Positions 7,916-60,239 of a stretch of 64,000 bases of DNA are shown in pieces. A program made the position numbers and the translations under genes. Each line of letters starts with the position of its first letter. Position 1 is the first letter of the stretch. The stretch covers positions 17,654,126-17,718,125 of the forward strand of contig NC_079224.1 in assembly GCF_029633865.1 (NCBI RefSeq). The letters are read 5' to 3'. The notes below the pieces were generated by a model. That model searched no databases. It was not told where the DNA came from and saw nothing but the letters and a program-made list of their open reading frames with translations. Source of the DNA: Lampris incognitus (lineage: Eukaryota; Chordata; Actinopteri; Lampriformes; Lampridae).

Positions 7916-8030
7916 ACGTACACGTGCATCAATATATGATTTTAAGAGGCGTTTTTGTAATCAGAAACACGCACGCGTACATATATTTTTGTTGCTTTCT
8001 TCACATCCTCAGCAGGCCGGCCTGTGTGCG

Positions 8031-8050
8031 CGTGCGCGCGCGCGCGCGCG
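8031..8050. repeat. Alternating CG/GC tract
   Basis: About 20 bp of alternating purine-pyrimidine GC, a candidate Z-DNA former, some 200 bp upstream of the inferred distal gata6 promoter. It sits in a CpG-rich neighbourhood. Confidence 0.85.
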
Positions 8051-8217
8051 GCAGGCCGGTCCCTGGCTCCGGCTGCTGAGACTCGGCGGCGTCCCGCCGC
8101 TCTCTCCGGAGTGATTCGTCACCAGCAGCCCTGTCAGACAAGACACACTTTGGCATCAGTGTGAAAACACCTCATTCGTCAAGTCGGAGCAGAAGAGAGA
8201 GGGAACCCGAGACAGGA

Positions 8218-8249
8218 TTTTATATCCTGGCACCTCTCTGACAACCGGC
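8218..8249 (+). promoter_or_regulatory. gata6: Candidate distal gata6 promoter (for exon 1a)
   Basis: A TATA-like ttttatatcc lies at 8218-8227 in a CpG-rich stretch, about 25-35 bp before the inferred transcription start. The position is inferred from the TATA-like motif and from the strong splice donor ending exon 1a; no transcript data support the exact start. Mammalian GATA6 is known to use two promoters. Confidence 0.4.
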
Positions 8250-8553
8250 TCGTCCAGGCTGGAGACGGTAGCGCGGCCCGGCTACTCCCACACTGACACC
8301 GCCGCACACACGTTACACTTCCACACTCGCTCAGGGGTATTTGCCGGGCTGTCTTGATCCGTCTTTAATCGGTCGGGGACACGGAGATTGCTGCAGCATC
8401 GTCACCGACGAAAATAAGAGAGAGGAGAACGGGGCACCTCGGGGGGGGGGGGGGTCTCCAGCACCTCTCCGGCGAGCTGCTGCTGCCGGCTCACATGAGG
8501 TTGAAATCAAACGTACAGGCCCTGAACCAAAGCAACGACAACAGCAGCACTAT
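8250..8553 (+). other. gata6: gata6 alternative first exon 1a (inferred)
   Basis: A GC-rich block ends in a consensus donor (actat|gtaagtac, GT at 8554-8555). It contains a G14 run at 8441-8454. The first ATG after the inferred start is at 8495. From there the frame is open to the donor, leaving two bases (AT) in the last codon. Exon 2 starts with G, so splicing makes an ATG at the junction in frame with the Gata6 start at 11039. The 5' boundary is approximate. Whether the exon is translated or only leader cannot be settled from sequence. Confidence 0.5.
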
Positions 8554-9819
8554 GTAAGTACGGGTTAACTATTTAGATCCACAACTAAGCAGAGACATCA
8601 CAGCCTTGTGCATGTTGCGTGTCTCCTACCTAGCGGTGTGCTTGTGCAGACTGAGAGTAAACAGACACACGTAGTTGTTGGGTTGTTGTCGGTGTGGCGG
8701 ACGAAGGTCTGTTTGTTTGTTTGTGGAGCTGCGGGGACGCGGCGGAGGACCGGCCGGTCAATGGATGATTCAATTCACGCCTCCTGGCTTTTTGATCATC
8801 ATGTGTATTCGGGCTGAATGGATCATGGCGGGTCTCTTCGGGACAGTTTAGGCCGCGCCGCTGAACCGTTTTAATCCCGTTTAACACCAAAGCAAAACGT
8901 CTCATTTAAATAAACGAATTAAGAGGCCCAGTCTCCTCCGCATTACAATGCTCCCTTTTTGATTTTCATTGTTCTCCCCCTCTCTCCCCCCCTTCGTTTG
9001 ATAGAATTTTTTCTTTATTTCTAAAATACTGTTAGGTTGTCTTAAAATAACGACAAATAATTAACTTTGCGTCACGTGCTTCTAAGTTTGCCAATTTACT
9101 TAATTTGGCAAATTATAAAGTTCATAATGAATTAAAAAAATCAATCAGTATACTTTCGTAAAAAAATAGAATGGGCCTGTCCCATTCCTCCGCTAATATG
9201 CGATTAGACTATATATTAACTATATATTAAATTTATATTAACTTTATATTAACTATATATTAACCAATAGACATTTATTAATCATAAATTAATGACCACA
9301 TTATACGTGACAAATTCCAGTTTTGCACCCATATAGTGTGTGTGTGTATATATATAAACCAACTGTTAAGTGTGTGCATAACTTATAAAGCTTATCAGTA
9401 AGGAAATATGTTTGCTATAAAGTATTATAAGATTTCTGCGTCAAGTTTTTTGTTTTTGTTTTGTTTTGTTTTTGGGGGGGGTTGTGTGAGGTTTTTCTTC
9501 ATATGAACCCAGGGTCTACAGATAAGGGGTGTACTACAGGTGTGATATGTAGCGATATCGAGGTAAATCCATCGGGATTCAGGCCTGTACGTTTGACGTG
9601 GTGCCAAGCGGTTCTGGTCGGCATGGTACAGAACCTGGTCTCTCCCCCCCCCCCACGGCGAGGCGCGTCTGAAGAAAAAAGAGGAAAAATATCATCACAT
9701 CCGCGATTTACGACGATTATTAAAACCGTGATCGAATCTGGCCGCTTGATTGATAGGGAGAGCTTACAGGCTGGCACCCCCCCCCTCCATCGGGGCTCGC
9801 GTCCGGCGCTCGAAACGTG

Positions 9820-9899
9820 ATTGGTCGGCGGAGCCGTCCGTCACCGCGGCCGCTGGAAGCGCCTCCTCTCATAAACCTGCTCGGAGCGCAGAGGCGTTT
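9820..9899 (+). promoter_or_regulatory. gata6: Candidate proximal gata6 promoter (for exon 1b)
   Basis: An inverted CCAAT box (attgg, 9820-9824) lies in CpG-rich DNA, followed about 50 bp later by the AT-containing ataaac at 9871-9876. This resembles a promoter core about 25 bp before an inferred start near 9900. A WGATAR site (ttatct, 9903-9908) falls at the start of the inferred exon. Confidence 0.4.
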
Positions 9900-9979
9900 T
9901 CATTATCTCCAGGAGCTCGCGGCTGCACACCAGCGCGAAAACTTTTTTGCGCGCGACTTAATGGCCCAGAAGCTAGCAG
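9900..9979 (+). other. gata6: gata6 alternative first exon 1b (inferred)
   Basis: This CpG-rich exon ends at a good donor (agctagcag|gtaggt, GT at 9980-9981). It has one ATG at 9961, which after splicing to exon 2 reads seven codons and stops at a TAG at the start of exon 2, so it forms a short upstream ORF. The 5' end is approximate. Confidence 0.45.
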
Positions 9980-10157
9980 GTAGGTCCGCCACTAGGTCCA
10001 TTTCTTCACTTCGGCTGTGCCCTCGTCCGCGGCCGGGCTGCGCCGAGTAAGAAAAAAAAGAAGAAGAAAAAAAAACAGCTGGTAAAACATCTGGCTTGAG
10101 TGGTCCGCTGGAGTGCCAGCTGCGCAGCGGGCTGCCCAAATCATTTCGCCTATTGTT

Positions 10158-10219
10158 TTATCACCGCGGGCTGCCTCTCGGCGGCCTTATCTCTGCTGCG
10201 TCTTATCAAGCGGTTATCT
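10158..10219 (+). promoter_or_regulatory. Cluster of four WGATAR sites in gata6 intron 1
   Basis: TTATCA at 10158-10163, TTATCT at 10187-10192, TTATCA at 10203-10208 and TTATCT at 10214-10219 are four GATA-factor consensus sites in 62 bp. All have the same orientation (WGATAR on the minus strand) and lie 180-240 bp downstream of exon 1b. This fits an auto- or cross-regulatory element bound by GATA proteins; function is inferred. Confidence 0.55.
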
Positions 10220-10757
10220 CTTTGCTTCGAAGACATATTGCGTTTTGTTTCCTATCTGTGACAGTGTGTGTGTATGTGTGCGTGTTTGAGAGAGAGAGAG
10301 AGCGAGGGGGGTAGAAAGAGAGAGAGAGGGGGAGAGTGTGTGTGTGTGTTTTTTTTTTTTTCTGGGTAATTATGATGAGACTATCGCGAAGAGGGAGGAC
10401 GAGGGGTTGTACGCGGATGGATCCGGCGCCCCTTTAAAGAGCGCTTGGGCGATTAGAGCGCGCTCGATGCGGATTAGCCGTACCTATTTTATTGAGCTCG
10501 AGGAGATACAAAGTCCATCGACCGACCCGCCGCCCAGTTTCGTCCGGGAGCGAGTTTTAGTCATCTGGCCTCGGACTTTCATTTCACCCCTCTTTTTTTC
10601 CAGCTCATATTGAAGGAATCTATACACACGCGTCTCGAAATGAAACCAAGCCCCGCATCAGTAGAGGGTTTGAGAATTTGGCGAAAAGGTGTGGCCGTCA
10701 AAACCCACCGTTAAATTCTGTTGCGATATTTGGGTTTTTTTGGGTTTGCCCTTATCA

Positions 10758-10761
<4 letters not shown>

Positions 10762-10849
<88 letters not shown>
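10762..10849. repeat. (AT)n microsatellite in gata6 intron 1
   Basis: Perfect AT repeat of about 86 bp, ending about 134 bp before the exon 2 acceptor. It can form cruciforms and is probably length-variable. Confidence 0.97.
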
Positions 10850-10850
<1 letters not shown>

Positions 10851-10983
10851 CTGGAAATATGGTGTGTGCGTTGGCCGACGATCACGAATCGCGTGGAGTC
10901 CAGAGCGTCCATAGTCTAATATCAAAGTTCACCCTTTTTCCTGCCTGTGTGTCTGACTCTCCCTAATACGCCCATTACTGCAG

Positions 10984-11939
10984 GGTAGACTACACCCTCA
11001 CCATTTTCAACCCCACGGCGTATGGAAAGTGCTCCTGGATGGACCTGGGTGACAACAGCTGGTCCATGGTCAAGCGAGAAGTGTCCAGCAGCCCAGGGTC
11101 ACCGGCTGAGCAGAGCTACTTGCACGGCGACAGCAGGAGGGAGGCTCCCACCGCCGAGGAGCTCAGGTCACCGGCGCCGCCGAGCGAGCTGGACGCCTTG
11201 GCACACCGACGCTCCGAGGGACGACCGCTACACTCCTACGTCCACTTCGGACACCACCACCACCATCACCACCACCACCACAGCGGCGGCAGCGGCGGCA
11301 GCGGCAGCCTCACCCCCGCCGCGGAGGACATCCCCCTCTTCACGGATTTAGACCAGGGCAACAAGCTGGTCCTCTCTGGCGGATCACACAAGGCGGGCTT
11401 GCTCGTCGACCCCACAGATATGTATCAGACACTCGCCATCGCGGCGGCGCAAAGCCAGACTGGATACGATTCCCCCTCCGCTAGTTATAGTATGCACTCC
11501 AACCCCAACTCTCCGGTGTACGTGCCCAGCTCCAGGGTGGGCTCCATGATACCCAGCCTGTCTTATCTGCAGGCCAGCGGGTCCACTCAGCCCAGCCACG
11601 CCGTCACCAGCCACTCGGTCTGGTCCCAGTCTACTCCGGACAGTCCGTCGTACAGCACCGGGAGCCCGCACACGGCCAACCGTTTCCACTACCCTCCAAG
11701 TCCGCCCATGAATAACGGGGCGCCCAGGGACACCGGCTACACGAACACGCTGAATGTGAGCAGGGACCAGTACAGCCTGACCCGGCCCCTCAGTGGATCC
11801 TACCCTAGTCCCTACTCCCCCTACGTTGCCCCCCAGCTGTCCCAGTTACCCTCGCCATGGACAGGAGGGCCTTTCGATAACACCATGCTGCACACCTTGC
11901 AGAGCAGGGGTGCGCCCCTAATTCGAGGCCCGAACGGAG
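10984..11939 (+). CDS. gata6: gata6 exon 2: leader end plus N-terminal activation region
   Basis: The acceptor cattactgcag ends at 10983. The first 55 bases precede the main ATG at 11039 and contain no in-frame stop. An out-of-frame ATG at 11022 opens a 109-codon overlapping upstream ORF. The exon encodes residues 1-300 and the first base of codon 301, and ends at donor gtaggg (11940). It contains the CAC/CAT run coding ten histidines and the glycine-serine tract after it. Another in-frame ATG at 11420 (MYQTLA) matches the internal start known in mammals. Confidence 0.93.
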
Positions 11940-14862
11940 GTAGGGGACAAAAATAATAATAAAAAAATCTTAGCCACACTATATATTATTATATAATGGA
12001 TGACATTGTGTTGTAAATGTTTTAAAATGGAAACTGGGTTACGAAATGCAGCTTTGCACGCGTGTCGGGCCTTGGTAAGAGAGTAAGGGGAGCAGTATAG
12101 CCCACACTTCAACCAGAGGCACGTTGAAAATAAAGCGAATAATTAATAAATGGACGATACAGGTATATAGTTATATCCAAGCTTAATTGAATATACTCTT
12201 CCGGGGGGGGGAGGCTGCCCTTTATTGAATTTCACCTCCCTACGTGAAACGCAGGCCCCTAATTAAACCAGGTATGGCTTCTCCACGACATTGTCTTGGA
12301 GATGAATCCTTTAGGAGGTGTTTAACAGACACGTGTGTTCTCCTTTTCAGAGATCCTGGACGACATGGCGGAGAGCAGGGAGTGTGTCAACTGCGGCTCC
12401 ATCTCTACGCCGCTGTGGAGGCGCGACGGCACGGGCCACTTCCTCTGTAACGCCTGCGGCCTTTACAGCAAAATGAATGGACTCAGCAGGCCGCTGATCA
12501 AACCCCAGAAACGCATGGTGAGAAGGGGGGAGGGGGGTGTCCCACTTCACCACTCCATTTTCTTGCCCGATTATTTCCAGTCCAATGGCTAGAGGCTGCA
12601 CCGTTATCCACGGTCGAAACTCCTTAAGCGATGCGCTACTTATACGTAGGCCTTATTTGTATTTACATAGCAGTCCACGTAAAACGGAGGCCATCTAGCC
12701 TGCCTGCTTCTCGCTGGAGACGGTCAGACGGCCTGCTTTCATTAGGGCCACGTTATTTATCGTCAGCCTCTTGGGGGCCGAGCAAGTGTTCTCAGGAGAC
12801 AGAAAGGGGAACTTGGCCGGACGCGACAGCTCCCGGCGCCATTACGCACGGCATTACGCACGGCATTACGCACGGGTTGCACCAGGCGATCAGGCGCCGC
12901 GTGAGATCATCGATAATTGACCGCGGGCAAATAAACGCGAGTAAATGTCAGTTGGGCTAAATGGGCAGCATTAAATGGCCGTTATTATCGGTAGGAAACA
13001 GGGTGCAGCCAAGCGAAGGATAATCAAATGAATGAAATCACAAACGACTCATTTATCTGTTGGGCAAAAGCCAGTCCAGTCATGGTAGTCACGTAAGCGC
13101 GAGATAGGCCTGTCTCTATTTTGCCTGCATTAGTCTGCCAGTGTCTTATTAGTATTATTACTATAATTGGTATTAGTGGTAATATTAATAATAATGATAA
13201 TAATATATTCTATTTTATTTACATTATCGTTATTGCTGTTATTGCTGTTATTATTGTTATCACTATTAGACTTGTTGCTATTATTATTCTTATATTTGCT
13301 ATTATTATCTTCTTCTTCTTCTTCTTCTTCTTCTTATTATTATTATTATTATCAGCTAGAAAAGAAAAGCGCTATAAAATGCAACTTGATTGATTAATAT
13401 TATTATCATTGTTGCTGTTGCTTATTTGCATTATTCCACGTTAATCACCGTGTTGTGTGTTGTGTGTTGCGTGTTGCGTGCTGGCCCACCAGTCCTCCTC
13501 CAGACGAATCGGTCTGTCGTGCGCCAACTGTCAAACAAGCACGACCACCCTGTGGCGCAGGAACGCGGACGGGGAGCCGGTGTGCAACGCCTGTGGGCTC
13601 TACACCAAATTACACGGGGTGAGTGCAAAAATAAAAATAAGATAAAATAAATCAGTTTCACCTTGATTATTCATATGTCTAAATTATTCGATGTGAATTA
13701 ATTATTCAACGAATGCAGGGAAGAAAAAAACTTGTAGTTAAAATCGCTGTTCAAATGCGGGTCCCTGTTCTGCAGGTACCTCGGCCGCTCGCCATGAAAA
13801 AAGAGGGGATTCAGACGAGAAAAAGAAAGCCCAAAACCTCAAATAAGACGAAAGGATCCTCTGGTAAATTTGTTGATTAAAAACTAATGATGTTAGGAGG
13901 GTCACAGCTGTTTCCCAGTGCTTTTTTATTTTATTTTATTTTCTTCTCATTGACATTGTCTGGTTATGTTTTCTATGCAGGCAATAGCAGCGTGGTCCCC
14001 ATGACTCCCACCTCCACGTCCTCATCCAACTCTGAAGACTGCTCCAAAAACAGCTCTCCGTCCACACAGGGCTCAGGGGTGAGACTGCTCTTAACGACTT
14101 TATTTCTAAAAATGAACCCTGCTGCTGGCTCCGCATGCTGTCGTAAATTGATAAGAGTCATGCAGAAGAAACTGATGTCATATTTTAATTACAGTTTTTT
14201 TTTTCTTTTCTTAAAAGTGCAATGGGCATTGGCTCTCACAAATACAAAGGCTGCATTTGTCTACTTTTTGCTCATATTAACCACTGCAATTCTCCAAAAA
14301 AAAAAGATAAAGATCAATTTATATTATGTGTTCTCTGAGCAAACGCTGTACAGTAAAACAGATAAAAACAAATTGTAAGCTTTTGCAAGGACAACAGGTG
14401 TGTTACTGAAATAAACAATGACAGGGTCAGAGTCATGCACTTTGGTGCGTGACTATTTCCTGATGATGAATCTGATGTCATGACATTATTATAATTAAAA
14501 AAAATTACTACAGTAAATATCTGGTGCTTTATGTAATTGTGTAATGTGACTCACATTATCCCCAAAACCATACACATGAATTACAGTCCAAGCAACACAG
14601 CGACAAACGCCGTGCAAAATGTGCAACCCTTTACGTACATTTCATTCCTATTAGGCCTAATTCTTGGTCTCCCCCCCCCCCCCCAATGTTGCAGGTGAGC
14701 TCCTCTGTGCTGTCCAGCTCTTCGGTGGAGGGAGCAGGCCCGGGCTCGGGGGTGAAGTACCCGGGACAGGAGGGTCTCTATACCAGCGTGGGTCTCTCCC
14801 AGCCCTCCGATGTGGCTTCCTCGGTGAGGGGGGAGCCCTGGTGCCCCATGGCCCTAGCTTGA
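11039..14862 (+). CDS. gata6: GATA-binding factor 6 (six coding exons, 515 aa)
   Basis: Zinc-finger transcription factor binding WGATAR DNA; in vertebrates it drives endoderm, heart and gut development in the nucleus. Coding exons: 11039-11939, 12351-12517, 13493-13618, 13776-13863, 13981-14078 and 14695-14862, all with GT-AG introns and matching phases. Residues 1-300 are the activation region, with LFTDLDQ near 100-106, MYQTLA at 128, SPVYVP near 158 and a 10-His run at 72-81. The N-finger has Cys312, 315, 333 and 336; the C-finger has Cys366, 369, 387 and 390; each is CX2C-X17-CX2C. The basic tail around 413-418 (RKRKPK) is the nuclear-localisation and DNA-contact segment. The C-terminus (KYPGQEGLY, ending WCPMALA) and the inter-finger [16 protein letters not shown] identify GATA6 rather than GATA4 or GATA5. 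The start at 11039 was chosen because MDLGDNSW resembles the family N-terminus; extended or internal starts are possible (see findings). Confidence 0.95.
12351..12517 (+). CDS. gata6: gata6 exon 3: N-terminal zinc finger
   Basis: Follows acceptor tccttttcag and ends before gtgaga at 12518. It encodes residues 301-356: a CVNC start, WRRDGTGH core and CNAC end of the N-finger, then [17 protein letters not shown]. In this family the N-finger binds FOG-type cofactors and some GATC sites. Confidence 0.95.
13373..13395. repeat. Transposon-tail-like 23-mer in gata6 intron 3
   Basis: The string beginning tataaaatgcaacttgattg is shared exactly with 6971-6993 and follows TTC/TTA trinucleotide runs (13311-13352). 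It looks like the 3' tail of a dispersed fish repeat; no coding part remains. Confidence 0.5.
13493..13618 (+). CDS. gata6: gata6 exon 4: C-terminal zinc finger
   Basis: Exactly 126 bp (42 codons, residues 357-398) between acceptor cccaccag and donor gtgagt. It encodes SSSRRIG, the CANC...WRRN...CNAC finger and GLYTKLHG. This finger gives the main WGATAR binding. Residue 394 is Thr where human GATA6 has Met. Confidence 0.95.
13776..13863 (+). CDS. gata6: gata6 exon 5: basic tail after the C-finger
   Basis: 88 bp, phase 0 to phase 1, residues 399-427 plus part of 428. It encodes [20 protein letters not shown], the highly conserved basic arm used for nuclear import and minor-groove contact. 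Acceptor ctgttctgcag, donor gtaaat. Confidence 0.95.
13981..14078 (+). CDS. gata6: gata6 exon 6: Ser/Thr-rich segment
   Basis: 98 bp, residues 428 (part) to 460, encoding a [10 protein letters not shown] / SEDCSKN region shared with other GATA6 proteins. The acceptor is ttctatgcag at 13971-13980 and the donor gtgaga starts at 14079. Confidence 0.92.
14695..14862 (+). CDS. gata6: gata6 exon 7: C-terminal exon and stop
   Basis: Encodes residues 461-515 and the TGA at 14860-14862. KYPGQEGLY and the terminal WCPMALA match the GATA6-specific C-terminus. The preceding acceptor uses a run of 14 C (14671-14684) as its pyrimidine tract. Confidence 0.93.
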   Translation: MSSSVLSSSSVEGAGPGSGVKYPGQEGLYTSVGLSQPSDVASSVRGEPWCPMALA

Positions 14863-25000: not shown

Positions 25001-25936
25001 ATGGATCCTGCAGACCTCAGTCAGCTGAACATAGTCCTGGAGAGATAGGGAACCCTGCTGGGAAAACACCAAAGCAAGTTGGAGTCTGTTTATTGAGTGT
25101 TGGACTCTTTCACCAGCAACATGACAGATATCGCCGCACGGCTACAGCAGCTTCAGCAGGGGCAAACCAGCACTCAACCACCACTTGCCCTCCCTGCCAG
25201 GGAACCTCGTCTGCCTCCCCCTGAGAACTATGCTGGTAAACTGGTTACATGCAGGCATTTTCTGTCCCAATGCTCACTCATTTTTTGAACTGCAACCATC
25301 TATTTTCCCACGCAGCGAGCGAAGGTCGCCTACATTATCACCCTGCTGTCTGGTTGGGCTTGCGAGTGGGGAACAGCCATATGGGAGGCCGGCTCTACTC
25401 TCTGCAATGACTATGGTTCTTTTGCTGAAGAGATGTGCAAGGCATTTGATCGTTCGGTGTACGGGGTAGAAGCCGCCCGTCAGATACTCCAGATACACCA
25501 GGGGCTTAGGTCTGTCTCCATCTATGCCATAGAGTTCCACACTCTTGCCACCACCAGCAGAAGGAACGTGGTGGCCCAGTTTGACACATTCCTCAATGGT
25601 CTTGCTGAGGATCTTAAAGATGAGCTTGCCACCCGTGAGGGTCCCCCCTCCTTAGATGACTTGCTAGTGATGACGATCCGTGTTGACAAGTGGCTAGCTA
25701 GCTCAACGTTGCCGAGAGAGAAACAGGAGTGCCTCCTGCGGTCATCTGCAGAACTCAGCCTCTTGTCGTGCCGGTCTCTAGATCCACGCCACCTCTTGAA
25801 CTGGAACCCATGCAGATCGACCGCACTCACCCGACTCCTGCTGAAAGACAGAAAAATCAGCACAAGGTCATGTCTCTACTGTGGCATAACTAGACACTTC
25901 ATAGGTACCTGTCCAGCAAAAGACAATGCTCGCTAA
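25001..25936 (+). pseudogene. Gypsy gag remnant
   Basis: Starts at an ATG just after the 5' LTR (MDPADLSQLN) but hits TAG at codon 16 and further stops and shifts. The capsid-like helical region (around 25430-25700) is recognisable, ending in a CCHC zinc knuckle ([14 protein letters not shown], about 25873-25914). Not functional. Confidence 0.8.
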
Positions 25937-28219
25937 TGGCCCAGAGAGGGCTGGTGAGCGTCACCCGTGTTCAGAGCTCCCCAATCCTTTGTACTCTTTT
26001 ACCCGCCACACTCTCGTGGAGGGGTCAGCAACACACATCAACTAGGCTGAGAACTCTGTCTTGGGCTGGAGCTCATTCTGTCATATACACTGTCTATGGT
26101 CTGCCCAATGTTCTGTGTCTCCCCTCCCAGTGCCTCAAGAGGATTATCCTGACCTTTCAGCTGTTCCTCCCGAATATTTGGACCTATAGACGGCCTTCAG
26201 CCAGTCCAGGGCTACTTCGCTGCCCCCACACCACCCGTACGACTGCTCCATTGACCTGTTGCCAAGTACTTCATCACCCCCTCCCATGGGGTCATTTCTA
26301 CTCGCTGTCTCCCCCAGAGGTCGAGGCTATGAACAAATATATCAGTGAGTCCCTGGCTGCCGGTATTATTTGCCCTTCATCCTCTCCAGTTGGTGATGTT
26401 TTTTTTTTTTTGTTGTTGTTGTTGTGGGGAAGGATGGCTTCCTCCATTCATGTATTGATTACCAGAGACTTAAGGAAATTACTGTTAAGAACCTTTACCC
26501 ATTACCCCTCATAACATCTGCTTTTGAGCTCCTGCAGGGACTAGCTATTTTATCTAAGTTTAACCTCTGCAATGCCTACCACCTGGTCTGAATCAGAGAA
26601 GGAGATGAGTTGAAACCTGCTTTTAACACCCCAACAGGGCACTACGAATACCTCGTTTTGCCTTTCGAGTTGACCAACGCCCCTGCAGTGTCTCAAACTC
26701 TGGTCAATTACATTCTGCGAGATATGATAAACCATTTTGTCTTTGTCTACCTTGATATTCCGATTTTTTCTGAGTCCGTCCAGGAGCATGTGCAACACAA
26801 CACGTCCGGCAGGTTCTACAATGTCTTCCGGAGAACCAGCTTTACGTCAAGACAGAAAAAGTGTGCCTTCCACCAAAAGTCACTCTCCTCCCTGAGGTTT
26901 ATCATCTCAGCAGGTAATATCCAGATGGACGTTGGAAAGGTCAAGGTGGTGTCTGAATGGCCCATCCCCAAGACCCACAAGGACATCCAAAGATTCTTAG
27001 GCATCACCAATTTTTATCGAAGGTTCATGCAGGACTACAGTAAGGTTGCCACCACTCTCACTGCCCTCACTTTCACTGCAATTAGATTCAGCTGGATGGA
27101 CAGCACTGATAAAGCATTCAGTGAGCTCAAGAGATGTTTCACCACGGCACCCATTCTGACTCTCACCGACCCCTCCCGTCAGTTCGTCATGGAAGTGGAT
27201 GCCTCGGATGTGGGTGTGGCGGCTTTTTTTTTTTGTCTCAACACTTGGTCAAGGATGATAATCTTCAACCCTGTGCTTTCTTTTCCCACTGGCTCACCCC
27301 CACTGAACAGAATCATGACATCAGTAACCGCAAACTCCTGGCTGTTAAACTTGCCCTTGAGGAGTGGTCCCATTGGCTTGAGGGCACAGAGGTCCTGTTC
27401 TTGGTCTGGAGGGATCCCAAGAACTTGGAATATATTGAGACAGCCAAACACCTCAACTCTCATCAGGCTCCCTGGGCCCTGTTCTTTACCCGGTTTAATT
27501 TTATCTTGTCCTACAGACCCGGGTCTAAGAACACCAAACTTGATGCCTGCTCCCGCCTCTGAGGAAAACTCAAAGCAGGTTACCATTCTGCCTGCGCAGC
27601 TTTTAGTGGCCGTGGTGGTTTGGGACATCGAAGTTGCGGTGTGCAACATGGCTTTATTTGTCCCCTGTTCTGTGCATTCGCAGGTCCTTCAGTGGGGACA
27701 CTTCCCGGTTGACTTGTCACCCTAGTTTCAGAAGAACTCTGGCCTGCATTCGGCAGCGGATCTGGTGAACCCCCAAGTCTGAGGATGGCAACAGCTTTGT
27801 CACCACATGCTTAGTCTGTGCCCAAAACAAGTCTTGAAACCAACCCCTGCTGGTCTGCTTCAATCTGTTTCTGTACCTAGACGTTCATGGTCCCACATAG
27901 CCCTGGATTTTGTAACTGGTCTCACTTCCTCCAACGATGACACTGCCACCCTCACAGTAGTTGATTATTTTTTTTAGTCTGTTAATGTTATTCCCCTTCT
28001 CAAGCTACCTTCTCCTAAAGAGACAGCACAGCTCATGATCAATCACGTATTTAAGATGTATGGATTACCTTTTGGCATTGTTTCTGACAGAGGGCCTCAT
28101 TTTGTCTCTCATTTTTGGAAGGAGTTTTGCAGGCTCATTGGTGCCTCCATCAGCTTGTCCTCCAGATTTCAACCCCAGACTAACTGCCCAACTGTGCAGT
28201 CTAATCAGGACCTGGAATA
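25937..28219 (+). pseudogene. Gypsy pol remnant (RT, RNase H, integrase)
   Basis: Several frames together show the family landmarks: [20 protein letters not shown] before the RT (about 26310-26370); FELTNAPAVSQTL and FVFVYLDI (26748-26759), where YxDD has become YLDI; RFLGITNFYRRF (about 26990); [12 protein letters not shown] of RNase H (27185 on), then KLALEEW and YRPGSKN; and SDRGPHF of integrase (about 28085). Poly-T runs at 26401 and 27226 add frameshifts. The integrase frame is cut at 28219 by Tc1 and resumes at 34137 with a WTMLTI.../ [10 protein letters not shown]-type segment. Confidence 0.85.
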
Positions 28220-31190
28220 TACAGTGGTGCTTGAAAGTTTGTGAAATCTTTAGAATTTTCTATATTTCTGCATAAATATGACCTAAAACATTATCAGATT
28301 TTCACACATGTCCTAAAAGTAAATAAAGAGAACCAAATTAAACAAATGAGACAAAAATAGTATACTTGGTCATTTATTTATTGAGGAAAATGATCCAATA
28401 TTTATCAGTGAGTGTAAAAAGTATGTGAACCTCTAAGATTAGCAGTTAATTTGAAGGGGAAATTATAGTCAGGTGTTTTCAATCAATGGGATGACAATCA
28501 GGTGTGAGTGGGCACCCTGTTTTATTTACACGTTTGTGGAAGTGTATCATGCCATGAACAAAGGAGATTTCTGAGGACCTCAGAAAAAGCGTTGTTGATG
28601 CTCATCAGGCTGGAAAAGGATACAAAACCATCTTTAAAGGGTTTGGACTCCACCAATCCACAGCCAGACAGACTGTGTACAAATGGAGGAATTTCAAGAC
28701 CATTGCTACCCTCCCCAGGGGTGGTCGACCATCAAAGATCACTCCAAGAGCACTCCAAGGTGTGTAATAGTCGGCCAGGTCACAAAGGAACCCAGGGCAA
28801 ATTACAAGCAACTAAAAGCCTCTCTCACATTGGCTAATGTTCATGAGTCCACCATCAGGAGAACACTGAACAACAATGGTGTGCATGGCAGGGTTGCAAG
28901 GAGAAAGCCACTGCTCTCCAAAAACAACATTGCTGCCCGTCTGCAGTTTGCTAAAGTACACGTGGACAAGCCAAAAGGCTATTGGAAAATTTTTTTGTGG
29001 ATGGTTGGGACCAAAATAGAACTTTTTGGTTTAAATAAGATACTTTATTGTCATTGTGTACACACAATGAAATTTAGATTGGTGACTCTCAGACCAGCAA
29101 CACAAGACAAGGTAAATGATTAAAAAAAAACCAACCCAAGATAGAAACAAGGACAAACAACATTTAGTATAAATAAGTGAGGTAGTAAAAATAAGTGAGG
29201 TAGCAAAAATGTTGATAAGACAATAAAAGATAGCGGCTTTTAAAGTTCAAATTAGTGCATGGGGTTACTGCACAGTTGTCCATATTGCAGCGGCTTTAGT
29301 ACCAGTTAGTCCTCAGCAGCTATAGGCAGATGTGTATGTGTGTGTGTGTGGGGGGGGGTGGGGGGGTGATGGACGCTACAGCTCTGGGGAAGAAGCTGTT
29401 CCTCAGCCCTGTCCGAGTTTTGATGGTGCGGTATCTTTTCCCTGATGGCAAGGGAACGAACAGACTGTGACCTGGGTGTCTTGCGTCTTTGCTGATGTTG
29501 CCGGCTTTCCTCTGTAGGTGGCCAGCATACACAGCATCCAGGTTCCAGAGCACAGCTCCCACAATTCTCTGTGCAGTCTTTACCACCCGGGCCAAGTCCT
29601 TCCTGTTCTCTGCTGTACAGCTGGCATACCACACTGTGACACATTGACAGAGGATGCTTTCTATTGTACTTCTGTAAAAGTTGACCAGCAGCTGAGAAGG
29701 GAGACTGGCTTGTTTAAGTTTCCTGAGGAAGAAAAGCCTCTGTTGTGCTTTCTTCACCAGGTGGGAAGTGTTGAGTGACCATGTGAGTTTTTTGGTTATG
29801 TGGATTCCCAGGAATTTGATGTTATCCACAATATGCACCTCTTCACCATTTATGTGCAGTGGGGGTGGGGTGGTCTCCCTGGATCTCCTGAAGTCCACAA
29901 TGATCTCCTTGGTTTTACTCATGTTCAGGACCAGGTTATTGTCTGAACACCACCCAGCCAGATATTGGACCTCCTCTCTGTAGTGTGCCTCCTCATTGCT
30001 GGTTATGAGTCCCACTATAGTGATGTCATCAGCAAACTTCACTATAGTGTTGGAGGAGTGAATGGGGGTACAATCGTGGGTGAAAAGGCTGAACAGGGCT
30101 GGACTGAGCACACAGCCCTGCAGCACACCTGTGTTCAGGATGAAGGTTGAAGATGTATGGTTACCTATCCTGACATTTTGTGGTCTGTGAGTGAGGAAGT
30201 CCATAATCCATGAACAGAGTGAAGTGGTTAATCCTAGGTTGCTGAGTTTGTGTACCAGTTTATGGGGGATTATCGTATTGAAAGCGGAGCTGAAGTCAAT
30301 AAAAAGCATCCTGACATATGTGTTTGGATGCTGCAGGTGGGACAGGGCTGTATGAAGTGTATTTGAGACTGCGTCCTCTGTAGATCTGTTCCCCCGATAG
30401 GCAAATTGGTGGCTGTCCAAATCTATGGTTATGATGTCCTTAATGTGACAGAGTATAATCCTCTCAAATCACTTCATAATAATTGGGGTCAGGGCAATTG
30501 GGCGATAGTCATTGAGGCAGTTGACTGCTGCCTTCTTGGGTACAGGTACAATGGTGGTGGATTTAAGGCAGGTGGGGACAACAGCCTGTCGTAAGGAGAG
30601 GTTGAAGATGTCGGTGAACACTGCTGTTAGTTGGTCAGCACATGTCTTCAGTGTGCGGCCTGACACTCTCTTTGGTCCTGCCGCTTTGGAGATATCGATT
30701 CTGTTCAGACTGGATTTCACCTGATGGTGCTGTAGGACGAGTGCATGCTCCTCCTTGGGCAGGGTCATTTGGGCCCTCACTCCGCTGAGCTGCGTTTCAA
30801 AGCATGCAAAGAACTGGTTAAGTGTGTCGGGGAGTGTGCTGTCACGGGTGATGTGTGGGGTGCTGCATTTGTAATCCGTTATGTTTTTAATACCTCTCCA
30901 CATGCTCTGGGGATTGTTATGTGTGAAGTGCCCCTCAATGCGCTGCTTGTACCTGCGTTTAGCCTCTCTAATGCCCTTTTTCAAGTCCCTCTAGGTAGTC
31001 TGTGAATATTCTCATTCATCCAGGTCATGGTTATCCAAAGGAATTGAATCGAGTGCAACTGGACTTGGTATATATCCGTGAAGACGTTTCGCCTCTCATC
31101 CAAGAGGCTTCATCAGTTTGTGCCTTTCTGACTAGACCAAGCTAGTCTGACTGGTTGGTGATGAAACTCAGATATTTATTCTCTTTGGAG

Positions 31191-31425
31191 TCGTTATCCG
31201 AGCTATTGATGACCATGGCTCTTTGTGATCAGATGTTTAGCCACGCTGGTCGTTATCAGAGCTAATGATGTCCATCGCTCTTTGTGTCCCGATGTTTAGC
31301 AACGCCTGTCGTTATCAGAGGTATTGATATGCGTGGCCCTTTTGTGTTCCGATGTTTAGCAGTGCCCGTCGTTATCAGAGGTATTGATATGCGTGGCTCT
31401 TTGTGATCCGATGTTAAGCAGCGAC
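31191..31425. repeat. 59-60-bp minisatellite inside the Penelope-like element
   Basis: Four units start with tcgttatc at 31191, 31250, 31309 and 31369. Each contains gatgtttagc-type and ggctctttgtg-type phrases. It lies downstream (3') of the endonuclease frame. Confidence 0.88.
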
Positions 31426-31473
31426 GGTTGTTGGGGGTGTGAGTTTCGACTTCATTAGTGATCCATTCAGTGG

Positions 31474-31908
31474 TCATGAGTCGATGGAGCCATTAGTGAC
31501 TGACTGTTGTTCTTGGAGGCTAAGCTTCTTGAGTCTCCTGGGTAGAGATGAAAGGACGGCATTGTAAGTGGGAGATAGGTGGTGTCGCAGACCTCCTCCT
31601 CTGTTGAGTGATGGTTTTTCCAGTTTCGCATAGATGGCTTCCTTCACCCCTCTTTCAAACCATCTATCTTCCCTGTCCAAAATGTGTACGTTGCTGTCCT
31701 CGAAGGAGTGTGTCTTCTCCTTTAGGTGTAGATAGACTGCTGAGTCTTGTCCTGAGGAGTTTGGCCTTCTGTGTTGGGCCATCCGTTTGTGTAGTGGTTG
31801 TTTGGTTTCTCCTATGTATAGGTCAGTGCAATCCTCATTGCATTGTACAGCATACACCAGATTGCTTTTTTGGGTGTGTGGTACACGGTCTTTGGGATGA
31901 ACCCCCAT
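31474..31908 (-). pseudogene. GIY-YIG endonuclease fragment of Penelope-like element
   Basis: A 144-residue open frame with NLVYAVQC (GIY-equivalent), DLYIGETKQPLHKRMAQHRR (the YIG segment and conserved Arg), and downstream KEKTHSFEDSNV and RGVKEAIYAKLEKPSLNRGGG. This is the C-terminal endonuclease characteristic of Penelope-like elements (Neptune/Poseidon-like in fish). Its start coincides with the inversion point, so the reverse transcriptase part is missing. Confidence 0.82.
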
Positions 31909-34843
31909 ATGTTTCTGGGGTCTCCGAGAAACTCAGGAGAATTTTTAACAAACACCGCATCCCGGTATACTTCAAACCCAGCAACACACTCCAACAAAGA
32001 CTGGTTCATCCCAAAGACTGTGTACCACACACCCAAAAAAGCAATCTGGTGTACGCTGTACAATGCATTGGGGATCCCTCTGGGTATTTTTGTAGGCCAG
32101 CATGTCACCTGTCCTGAAGGCAGCATCTCGAGCCCTGAGCAGAGACCGCACATTCCTGTCCAACCATGGCTTTTGGTTTGGAAATACCTTGATGGTTTTG
32201 GTGGTTAGTACTGTCTCAGTACAGAAATGAATGTAGGCCAGGACGGCTGAAGTGTACTCCTCTAAGTCTGCTCCCTGTGCAAACACTCCCCAGTCTGTGC
32301 TTCCAAAGCAGTCCTGCAGTCGTGAGGTGGCTTCCTCACTCCAAACTTGGGACAGTTTTAACAGCTGGTCTTGTTCTTCAGATCAGAGGTTTATAGGATG
32401 GAGTCATTACCAGTGAGATGTGGTCTGATAAGCCGAGGCATGGCGATGGTGCAGCTTTGTATGCTTCTTGGATGTTGGTGTAAACTTGGTCCAGAATATT
32501 TTTGTCTCTCGTTGGGAAGTTGATATTCTTGTGGAGTTTGGGCAGCACTGTCTTTAGTTCTGAGTGGTTAAAGTCTCCTGGCACAATCACAGTTCCCTCT
32601 GGATGTGCATTCAGCTGGTTGTTGAGAGTGCTGTGCAGTTCCTCCAGTGCCATCTTAGCATTAGCATGTGGTGGTATATAAACGGCTGTGATTAAGATGG
32701 CAGAAAACTCCCTCGGCATGTAAAATGGTTTGCATTTCACAGCCAGGTATTCTGAGTCCCAGGAGCAGTGTGTTCCAATAATGTTTGTAGCTGTACACCA
32801 GTCATTATTTATGTAAATACACACTCCTCCATCTTTGCTCTTACTGGAGGCTGCTGTCCTATCCACTCGATAAACAGAGTGCCCCGCTAGTTCAATAGCC
32901 GCGTCGGGAACGGTGCTGTCCAGCCAGGTCTCTATGATGATCATCACACAGCTGTCCATGTTATGCGACGTAATCCTCGGTCTTATTTCGTCCATCTTAC
33001 TGACAAGCGAGCGGGGAGTTGGCAAGAAAGAGACTCGGCAGGAGTGGTCTGTGCAGGTTAGCCCTTAGCCTAGCTTGTAGGCTGCTCCTCTTACCCCGCT
33101 TCTGCTTCCTTTCCCTCCGACGCCTCTTTGGTGGGATAGCCATAACTCCCCCTCCGGGCTCTCCTGGATGCAGGCTCTCCGGTGGGATCGAGTCCAGGCT
33201 TCCAGTTGTGTCCTGATACCATCCTCCAATGTTAAGGAGTTCGGCTCGGTCATACTGTATACGAGCCTCGAGCGCTCGAACAAGCAACCACAACACACAC
33301 AAAAGCACAAAAATACTGTTTCGCTGAGGGCACCGAGCTGCTGCGTCTGTGCGTGCCATCATCTACAGATGAGAAACGTTATGTTTGGAGCAAGGAAAAC
33401 ACTGCATTCCAGGATAAGAACCTTGTCCCATCGGTGAAACATGGTGGTGGTAGTATCATGGTTTGGGCCAGTTTTGCTGCATCTGGGCCAGGACGGCTTG
33501 CCATGATTGATTGAACAATGAATTCTGAATTATACCAGCGAATTCTTAAGGAAAATGTCAGGACATCTGTCCGTGAACTGAATCTCAAGAGAACACGGGT
33601 CAGGCAGCAAGACAACAGCCCCTAAGCACACAAGTCGTTCTACCAAAGAATGGTTAAAGAAGAATAAAGTTAATGTTTTGGAATGGCCAAGTCAAAGTCC
33701 TGACCTTAATCCAATCAAAATGTTGTGGAAGGACCTGAAGTGAGCAGTTCATGTGAGGAAACCCACCAACATCCCAGAGCTGAAGCTGTTCTGTACGGAG
33801 GAATGGCCTAAAATTCCTCCAAGCTGATATGCAGGACTGATCAACAGTTGCCAGAAACATTTAGTTGCAGTTATTGCTGCACACGGAGGGGGGGGGGGGG
33901 GTCACACCAGATACTGAAAGCAAAGGTTCACATACTTTTGCCACTCACACATATGTAATATTGGATCATTTTCCTCAATGAACAAATGATCAAGTATAAT
34001 ATTTTTGTCTCATTTGTTTAATTGAGTTCTCTTTGTCTGCTTTTAGGACTTGTGTGAAAATCTGATGTTTTAGGTAATATTTATGCAGAAATATAGAAAA
34101 TTCTAAAGGGTTCATAAACCTTCAAGCACCACTGTATTCTGCACTTCCGGGCCTCCTAGCATCAATCCTCCTAAAATCAACACTCGGCCTGGGTGGACTA
34201 TGCTCACAATTCTCTTCTGGTATCTCCCAATGCCCTATCCCCTTTTCAATGTTGTCTCGGTTACCAACCCCCCCGTTTCCCTCTCAGGAAGAGGAGGCCA
34301 GTGTTCCCTCCATTCGGGTGTTCATCCAACAACCTGGAAATGAGTTTGCTTGGCTTTGCTTCAGTCCGGGGAATGGGTGAGGAGGGCAGTGGACGGGGAT
34401 AGGACCAAAGCACCCCATTACTGTTGTGGTCAGAGGGTTTAGTTGTCCATTCGGGACCTACTGTTGAAGATGTGCTCCCAAAAGTTGGTGCTCCAGTTAA
34501 CTGGCCCTTACCCCATCTCCAAATCATCAGCTCATCTGTGGCCCGCCTCAGACTGCCCAGTTCCCTCCGCCAAGTGCACCCATCCTTCCATGTCTCCTAG
34601 ATTAAACCTATGCGTCGCTGCCCTCACTCACCTCTGACCCCAGCCCCACCTCCTCCATGACTCATCAATGGATCAGCTGCTTACACAGTCAGGCGACTGT
34701 TGGATGTCTGCCACAATGGTTGAGGGTTTCAATACCTTTTTGATTGGGAGGGTTATGGTCCTGAAGAGAGGAGCTGGGTTCCTGCACGTGACATTCTGGA
34801 TTTGTCCCTTGTCTGACATCAGGAGCCATCCCTGGCGGGAGGA

Positions 34844-59489: not shown

Positions 59490-59630
59490 ACACGTGACCT
59501 GCCTGTTTTCAGCCAGTTTTAACGCATGTAGTTAGTCCCAAAGACAGGACACTGGCGTCCGCCGCACACAGGCACGGCTGAAGCACGGTCCCAGGTGAAC
59601 CGAGGGGAAACGCTGGTCGGAGGGTGGACC
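59490..59630 (+). promoter_or_regulatory. cables1: Probable cables1 promoter/5' UTR
   Basis: A GC-rich, CpG-bearing stretch directly upstream of the cables1 start. An E-box CACGTG is at 59491-59496. No TATA box is evident, consistent with a CpG-type promoter. The transcription start cannot be placed. Confidence 0.4.
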
Positions 59631-60193
59631 ATGGCGGCTGCCACAAGCAGCAACACATCCAGCAGCACGCTGCAGATCAAGCACTCCGGCATCGAGCATA
59701 CGCGGAAACGCATAGATCCGAGGAGGAGGCAAGCGGCGCTGTCGTTTCTCAGCAATATCTCCCTGGACGGGCGGCCGGTACAAGACGATGCGGACAACCA
59801 GACCGAGGAGGACCACCACTGCGTTGAGGCCGGGGCTAGACACAGCCTGCTGTCCCCGGAGCGCTCCGTGCAGACGGCTGCCGGCAGCGCGGCCGCCCAG
59901 ACCCTGGCTGCTGCACACCAGGCTCTCCTGGCTCACCCCCGGGCTGCTTTCGGGACGGCTTCCTCTGCCACAGCTGCCCCGGCCGGGACGGGGACGGAGC
60001 TGGAGCCGGATGCGTTCGGGCCCTCGATATTCAGCTCCCCCTTCTCTGCGGTTCCAGCCGCGACGAGAGGAAGGCTGCAGACCTACACTCAGGGAATCCT
60101 ACCTGCCCCCTATTCCAGACAAGCCCCCCAGAACTACTGCAGTCTGGAGGCTGGACAGATAGCCAACTCTGCCATAGAGCTGCAGAGGTCAAG
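59631..60193 (+). CDS. cables1: Cdk5 and Abl enzyme substrate 1, coding exon 1 (partial gene)
   Basis: CABLES1 is an adaptor that links cyclin-dependent kinases (CDK2, CDK3, CDK5) with tyrosine kinases such as Abl and Wee1, restraining the cell cycle and acting in neurons. This exon encodes 187 residues plus two bases. It starts at an ATG in good context (ggaccATGG) with an Ala/Ser/Thr-rich beginning. Residues 29-49 (DPRRRQAALSFL then SNISLDGRP) match the family's first conserved block. RLQTYTQGILPAPYSR and QNYCSLE near the end match the block that separates CABLES1 from CABLES2. The exon ends in LQRSR split by donor gtaacc at 60194. The cyclin-box C-terminus lies beyond the window. An upstream in-frame GTG at 59595 is not needed as a start. 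Confidence 0.9.
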
Positions 60194-60239
60194 GTAACCA
60201 TGTGGACAGGCTTAATGCAACTATGATATTAGTGTTTTA

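Follow-up and report, generated by a model that had tools for sequence, protein, structure and literature searches.

A putative coding first exon of gata6 in the teleost Lampris incognitus

Heart, gut, pancreas and gonad are all sensitive to the dosage of GATA6 and to the balance of its isoforms, of which the long one has been reported to be more active than the short one (PMC5297793). That the choice of first exon can alter the N-terminus of a GATA protein is not a new principle and is known for other members of the family; chicken GATA-5 has distinct isoforms arising from alternative first exons (PMC9099915), and for chick Gata6 no alternative first exon is described. The vertebrate GATA4/5/6 genes are reported to have lost an ancestral N-terminal motif, N1, that is retained in invertebrates (Gillis et al. 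2009). In Japanese flounder, a GATA6 cDNA (KY039315) obtained by rapid amplification of cDNA ends (RACE) encodes 535 residues with zinc fingers at 332-361 and 388-412, the gene has eight exons, and the 5′ untranslated region (UTR) of 92 bases takes up exon 1 and continues into exon 2 (PMC5297793). A search of the open-access literature found no gata6 extension encoded by an upstream exon in teleosts. We present here the gata6 locus of Lampris incognitus, contained in a 64-kb window (NC_079224.1, positions 17,654,126 to 17,718,125 of the forward strand; this whole stretch of 64,000 bases was analysed, and all positions below refer to it). A predicted upstream exon of this gene, exon 1a, is probably a coding exon, such that the choice of promoter could change the Gata6 products.

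The predicted upstream exons and their reading frames

The gata6 gene occupies bases 7.9 to 15 kb on the plus strand, the strand of all gata6 features described here. The predicted exon 1a (8014-8553, its 5′ boundary tentative) would end at the donor TAT/GTAAGT at 8554, where 8551-8559 reads tat/gtaagt, and exon 2 of the gene model (10984-11939) would begin after the acceptor at 10984, where 10978-10990 reads ctgcag/ggtagac. When 8553 is joined to 10984 the sequence reads ACT ATG GTA GAC, which bears out the actATGG given in the first-pass annotation of this DNA, with the first two bases of the ATG at 8552-8553 and the third at 10984. The context of this junction ATG, GCACTATGG, has A at -3 and G at +4 and is strong, as claimed. 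From it, 19 stop-free codons (MVDYTLTIFNPTAYGKCSW) lead into MDLGDNSW at 11039, whose own ATG stands in a weak context (CCTGGATGG, T at -3). The ATG at 8495 shares this frame, without an intervening stop, and gives 38 codons up to MDLGDNSW; its context, CTCACATGA, is weak, with C at -3 and A at +4. It had been called the only earlier ATG of exon 1a, and no other occurs in 7939-8551. The upstream exon has its own AUG, is open, and is in frame with the main gata6 exon. The proposed extension would consist of MRLKSNVQALNQSNDNSST plus the AT of the split ATG from exon 1a (8495-8553) and of (G)VDYTLTIFNPTAYGKCSW from exon 2 (10984-11038), and SNVQALNQSNDNSSTMVDYTLTIFNPTAYGK is an example of a tryptic peptide within it.

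The same annotation held that splicing creates the junction ATG. The in-frame ATG is there after joining, but the unspliced RNA already carries an ATG at 8552-8554, with TAA as the next codon; splicing swaps the codons that follow this ATG rather than making the ATG itself.

A second predicted first exon, exon 1b, has its 3′ end at 9961-9979, before the donor CAG/GTAGGT at 9980. The ATG at 9961, in a weak context, begins the MAQKLAG upstream open reading frame (ORF), which after splicing to exon 2 reads M-A-Q-K-L-A-G-stop with its TAG at 10986-10988, the seven codons that had been predicted. An out-of-frame ATG at 11022 had been overlooked. It is common to every mRNA that contains exon 2, has a weak context (CGGCGTATGG), and opens an ORF of 109 codons plus stop (11022-11351). 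This ORF begins 17 bases before the MDLG start, overlaps that start, and closes 68 bases before the short-form start (MYQTL, 11420-11422), the names short and long form being taken from mammalian GATA6 (PMC5297793). The missed AUG alters the outcome expected for exon 1b mRNAs, and on mRNAs without an upstream start the ORF may govern the balance of long and short forms.

Coding signal and splice sites

Across the 38 codons of the extension, read in the Gata6 frame, the G+C fractions at codon positions 1, 2 and 3 (GC1/2/3) are 0.32/0.42/0.76, with a third-position excess of 0.395; the 515-codon gata6 coding sequence has 0.53/0.57/0.78 and an excess of 0.228. The excess of the 38 codons was matched by about 1 in 5000 dinucleotide shuffles (P 0.0002). 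The exon 1a half (0.32/0.37/0.74, shuffle P 0.0052) and the exon 2 half (0.32/0.47/0.79, shuffle P 0.0108) each show the coding-type pattern when taken separately. Control windows of 114 bases were taken, overlapping and from both strands, outside the gata6 exons and with the exons of other genes included; the excess was reached in 4 of 17518 of them, in 2 of the 11119 that were G+C-matched, and in 1 of the 2812 that were G+C-matched and stop-free. When the remaining 515 codons of gata6 were used to train a codon-usage model, the 38 codons scored 0.145 bits per codon, a value reached by 7 of 5710 stop-free windows and by 5 of the 3907 G+C-matched ones. Under this model the exon 1a half scored 0.03 bits per codon (null mean -0.63), and a held-out ORF at 59532-60197 scored -0.004. 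Because of the coding-type composition and the result of the gata6-trained model, exon 1a is more likely to be coding than untranslated. The leader ahead of 8495 lends weak support: 8001-8494 contains no ATG, whereas 2000 dinucleotide shuffles of it averaged 3.6 (P 0.012), and P is 0.0245 for 8100-8494.

Splice sites were scored with a weight matrix of base frequencies. The donor at 8554 scores 3.47, ranking 71st among the 4120 GT sites of the plus strand, and falls inside the range of the five gata6 model donors (2.72 to 5.26); the donor at 9980 scores 6.06 and ranks 10th. By sequence, the two would fit a pair of alternative first exons that share exon 2. The acceptor at 10984 scores 1.85 (rank 263 of 4052 AG sites), and its placement as the start of exon 2 agrees with the coding signal over the first 55 bases of that exon. 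We infer that 8553/8554 is a used donor.

As a control, the 122 other GT sites on both strands with scores at least that of the 8554 donor were joined to the 10984 acceptor. A junction ATG was formed by 11 of the 122, and we rejected the junction ATG alone as evidence for that reason. An in-frame ATG at least 19 codons back was likewise found for 11, and at least 19 open codons in the required frame for 45; an open frame combined with the third-position excess over the last 19 codons occurred at 1, and at none when an ATG was required in addition. Among all 7722 other GT sites, the corresponding counts were 21 for open frame and excess and 11 with an ATG. The first-pass annotation had allowed that an open stretch of this length could arise by chance, which is fair for the open frame, an ordinary one by this control; the codon-position composition is rare.

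Other features lie near these sites. Upstream of exon 1a, position 8016 resembles a strong acceptor (score 7.22), so exon 1a may be an internal exon preceded by yet another. Within the intron that precedes exon 2 lies a possible 85-base exon at 10604-10688, with an acceptor score of 9.26 and a donor at 10689 scoring 4.16; the intron also carries an uninterrupted (AT)43 repeat at 10763-10848.

Competing readings and predicted products

It is unlikely, in our assessment, that exon 1a serves as an untranslated leader in the way of its mammalian counterparts, with the open stretch and its composition due to chance and MDLGDNSW the sole long-form start. This would agree with mammalian GATA6, which has two promoters and first exons, 1a and 1b, that are untranslated and lie upstream of two initiation codons, with the general description of GATA first exons as untranslated, and with the ordinary nature of the open frame. 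It accounts poorly for a coding-type composition that appears in both exons and in the right frame, and for a long-form start at 11039 with a weak context and an out-of-frame AUG shortly upstream. Several further observations weigh against a coding exon 1a. Zebrafish GATA6 is described with just one exon upstream of those that encode the fingers (Gillis et al. 2009, PMC2857956), as is zebrafish GATA5 (PMC2857956). The span of the flounder UTR reads most simply as a start within the main exon (PMC5297793), and the flounder protein's extra length would also fit repeats in the N-terminus. The control windows overlap, and the statistic, though a standard one, was picked after the sequence had been viewed. 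The ATG depletion of the leader depends on the interval and is weaker in a shorter one (P 0.0895 for 8200-8494). The coding signal has a blurred upstream edge: 8369-8494 lacks stops in the frame of the extension and reaches -0.08 bits per codon, close to the 0.03 of the exon 1a half and above the null mean of -0.63; the third-position excess there is just 0.107, and because this segment has no in-frame ATG it may be either a G+C-rich leader that mimics coding sequence or a sign of a non-AUG start upstream.

Splicing supplies another point on that side. With a score of 9.26, the acceptor at 10604 far exceeds that at 10984 (1.85), and the frame would gain stops if 8553 were joined to 10604 or if 10604-10688 were retained as an exon. 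If the 8554 donor were unused or joined elsewhere, to 10604 or to this cryptic exon with its donor at 10689 (4.16), the extension would never form and the upstream AUGs would open short ORFs; we regard this as improbable, and the coding look of the exon 2 half (P 0.0108) would go unexplained by it. It is rather unlikely that the junction ATG alone is used, adding 19 residues, with 8495 passed over for its weak context. The contrast between A at -3 with G at +4 in the junction context and C at -3 with A at +4 at 8495 would favour such a start, as would the flounder protein, with 535 residues compared with 534 and a first finger from 332 compared with 331 (PMC5297793); the second finger (388 compared with 385) and the C-terminal remainder fit less closely, and the exon 1a half upstream of the junction looks coding too (P 0.0052). 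Because of that upstream half, the AUG at 8495 is probably a real start despite its weak context, with the junction ATG as a second start. The part of the flounder protein that precedes the fingers is 20 to 22 residues longer than in the 515-residue MDLG form, close to the 19 that the junction form adds; these numbers are compatible with an extension and nothing firmer, and were set aside as ambiguous when considered as a test of it. Of the flounder 5′ RACE primers, Rv1 matches at 11069 with one mismatch, and Rv2 has no match in the window with fewer than 6 mismatches. On balance the coding reading of exon 1a, with the start at either 8495 or the junction, is favoured as the probable one.

The anatomy and the coding-type composition are features of the sequence itself; we infer splicing, the starts used, and the consequence of two promoters, and the expression steps of the coding reading are predicted from the established rules of ribosome scanning. 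On mRNA from the exon 1a promoter, scanning ribosomes would find no AUG until the weak one at 8495, and those that pass it would reach the strong AUG completed by splicing. Since both AUGs are in frame, the exon 1a mRNA would yield a Gata6 long form with 38 or 19 added residues. The MDLGDNSW start would be minor or unused on this mRNA; few ribosomes would reach 11022 or 11039, so the product would be the extended long form. On exon 1b mRNA, the extension would be impossible, and ribosomes would meet the seven-codon ORF at 9961, then 11022, then 11039. As the 11022 ORF spans the MDLG start and stops 68 bases short of 11420, leaky scanning would yield the MDLG long form, and reinitiation at 11420 may add some short form. 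Because the exon 1a AUGs bypass 11022 and exon 1b mRNAs meet it, promoter choice could set both the N-terminus and the ratio of long to short form. This fuller account, in which a second 5′ coding exon is genuine in teleost gata6 and the promoter used determines the 19- or 38-residue extension together with the long/short ratio through the 11022 ORF, is possible and held only tentatively. The switch of the N-terminus by promoter choice that the first-pass annotation proposed gains from the coding composition of both exon halves and from the GATA precedents; its emphasis on the junction ATG may be misplaced.

If exon 1a is coding, work on fish gata6 that expresses or blocks the MDLG form alone overlooks what one of the promoters mainly makes, and the pair of upstream exons would act as a simple switch between protein forms. 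The view, drawn from zebrafish GATA6 (PMC2857956), that one exon precedes the fingers would then be corrected, for this fish if not more widely. Exon 1a may already be present in automatic gene models of other fish.

The surrounding sequence and comparison with known GATA genes

The remaining gata6 model is that of an orthologue, with a GATA-N domain, two GATA zinc fingers, and the right order and exons. The coding part of exon 2, encoding the long form from MDLGDNSW, spans 11039-11939, with the Pfam GATA-N domain over its later part (PF05349, E 8.9e-65, residues 146-317 of the 318-residue query 10985-11938). A long N-terminal part of 127 codons, from 11039 to 11420, precedes MYQTL, and MDLGDNSW resembles the mammalian long-form start. 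Exon 3 (12351-12517) encodes the first zinc finger (PF00320, E 1.4e-15), and exon 4 (13493-13618) the second. Exons 5 (13776-13863) and 6 (13981-14078) follow, and the coding part of exon 7 (14695-14862) runs up to the stop TGA. The MDLG form has 515 residues, with finger cysteines from 312 and 366 and the second finger, CX2CX17CX2C, at 366-390. Gata6 also contains a run of ten histidines (11252-11281). Nearly all of the PDB matches listed are expression tags that match this natural run and were rejected as relatives; GATA-4 (8vg0) is the only true relative among them. Protein scans for stray fish gata6 in genome contigs (588 pattern matches) and viral contigs (600) gave none that was confirmed.

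Elsewhere in the window, a cluster of mobile elements at 25289-33064 was recognized with Pfam, comprising a retrotransposon gag and reverse transcriptase/RNase H (25289-27722, plus strand), a Tc3-type transposase (28638-29120, plus strand), a LINE-type reverse transcriptase (29323-30468, minus strand), and, below the Pfam cut-off, GIY-YIG (31477-31932, minus strand) and endonuclease (32381-33064, minus strand) matches. The gata6 gene is usually flanked by mib1 and cables1. The ORF at 59532-60197 on the plus strand, which had no Pfam match, looks like a candidate first exon of cables1.

Among known systems, mammalian GATA6 has the arrangement predicted for this locus, with two upstream first exons, a common exon 2, and a long-form start followed by a short-form start, here 127 codons later. 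Its first exons are untranslated, and its two exon 2 AUGs are used by leaky scanning (PMC5297793, PMC9099915), whereas exon 1a here would add 19 or 38 residues. The GATA4 mRNA of the mammalian heart, like the exon 2 arrangement, has an upstream AUG in the leader, which there lowers translation of the main ORF (PMC10547706); that upstream ORF is said to act together with a double-stranded RNA structure. Zebrafish gata4, also a teleost gene of the gata4/5/6 group, is said to start translation from an ATG in exon 1, upstream of the main N-terminal exon (PMC2795200, where Heicklen-Klein and Evans 2004 are cited); it is another paralogue, and the likeness concerns the position of the start codon. 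Chicken GATA-5 shows that the choice of promoter and first exon can alter the N-terminus of a GATA4/5/6 protein; there an exon is omitted and the protein is truncated (PMC9099915), whereas here residues would be added.

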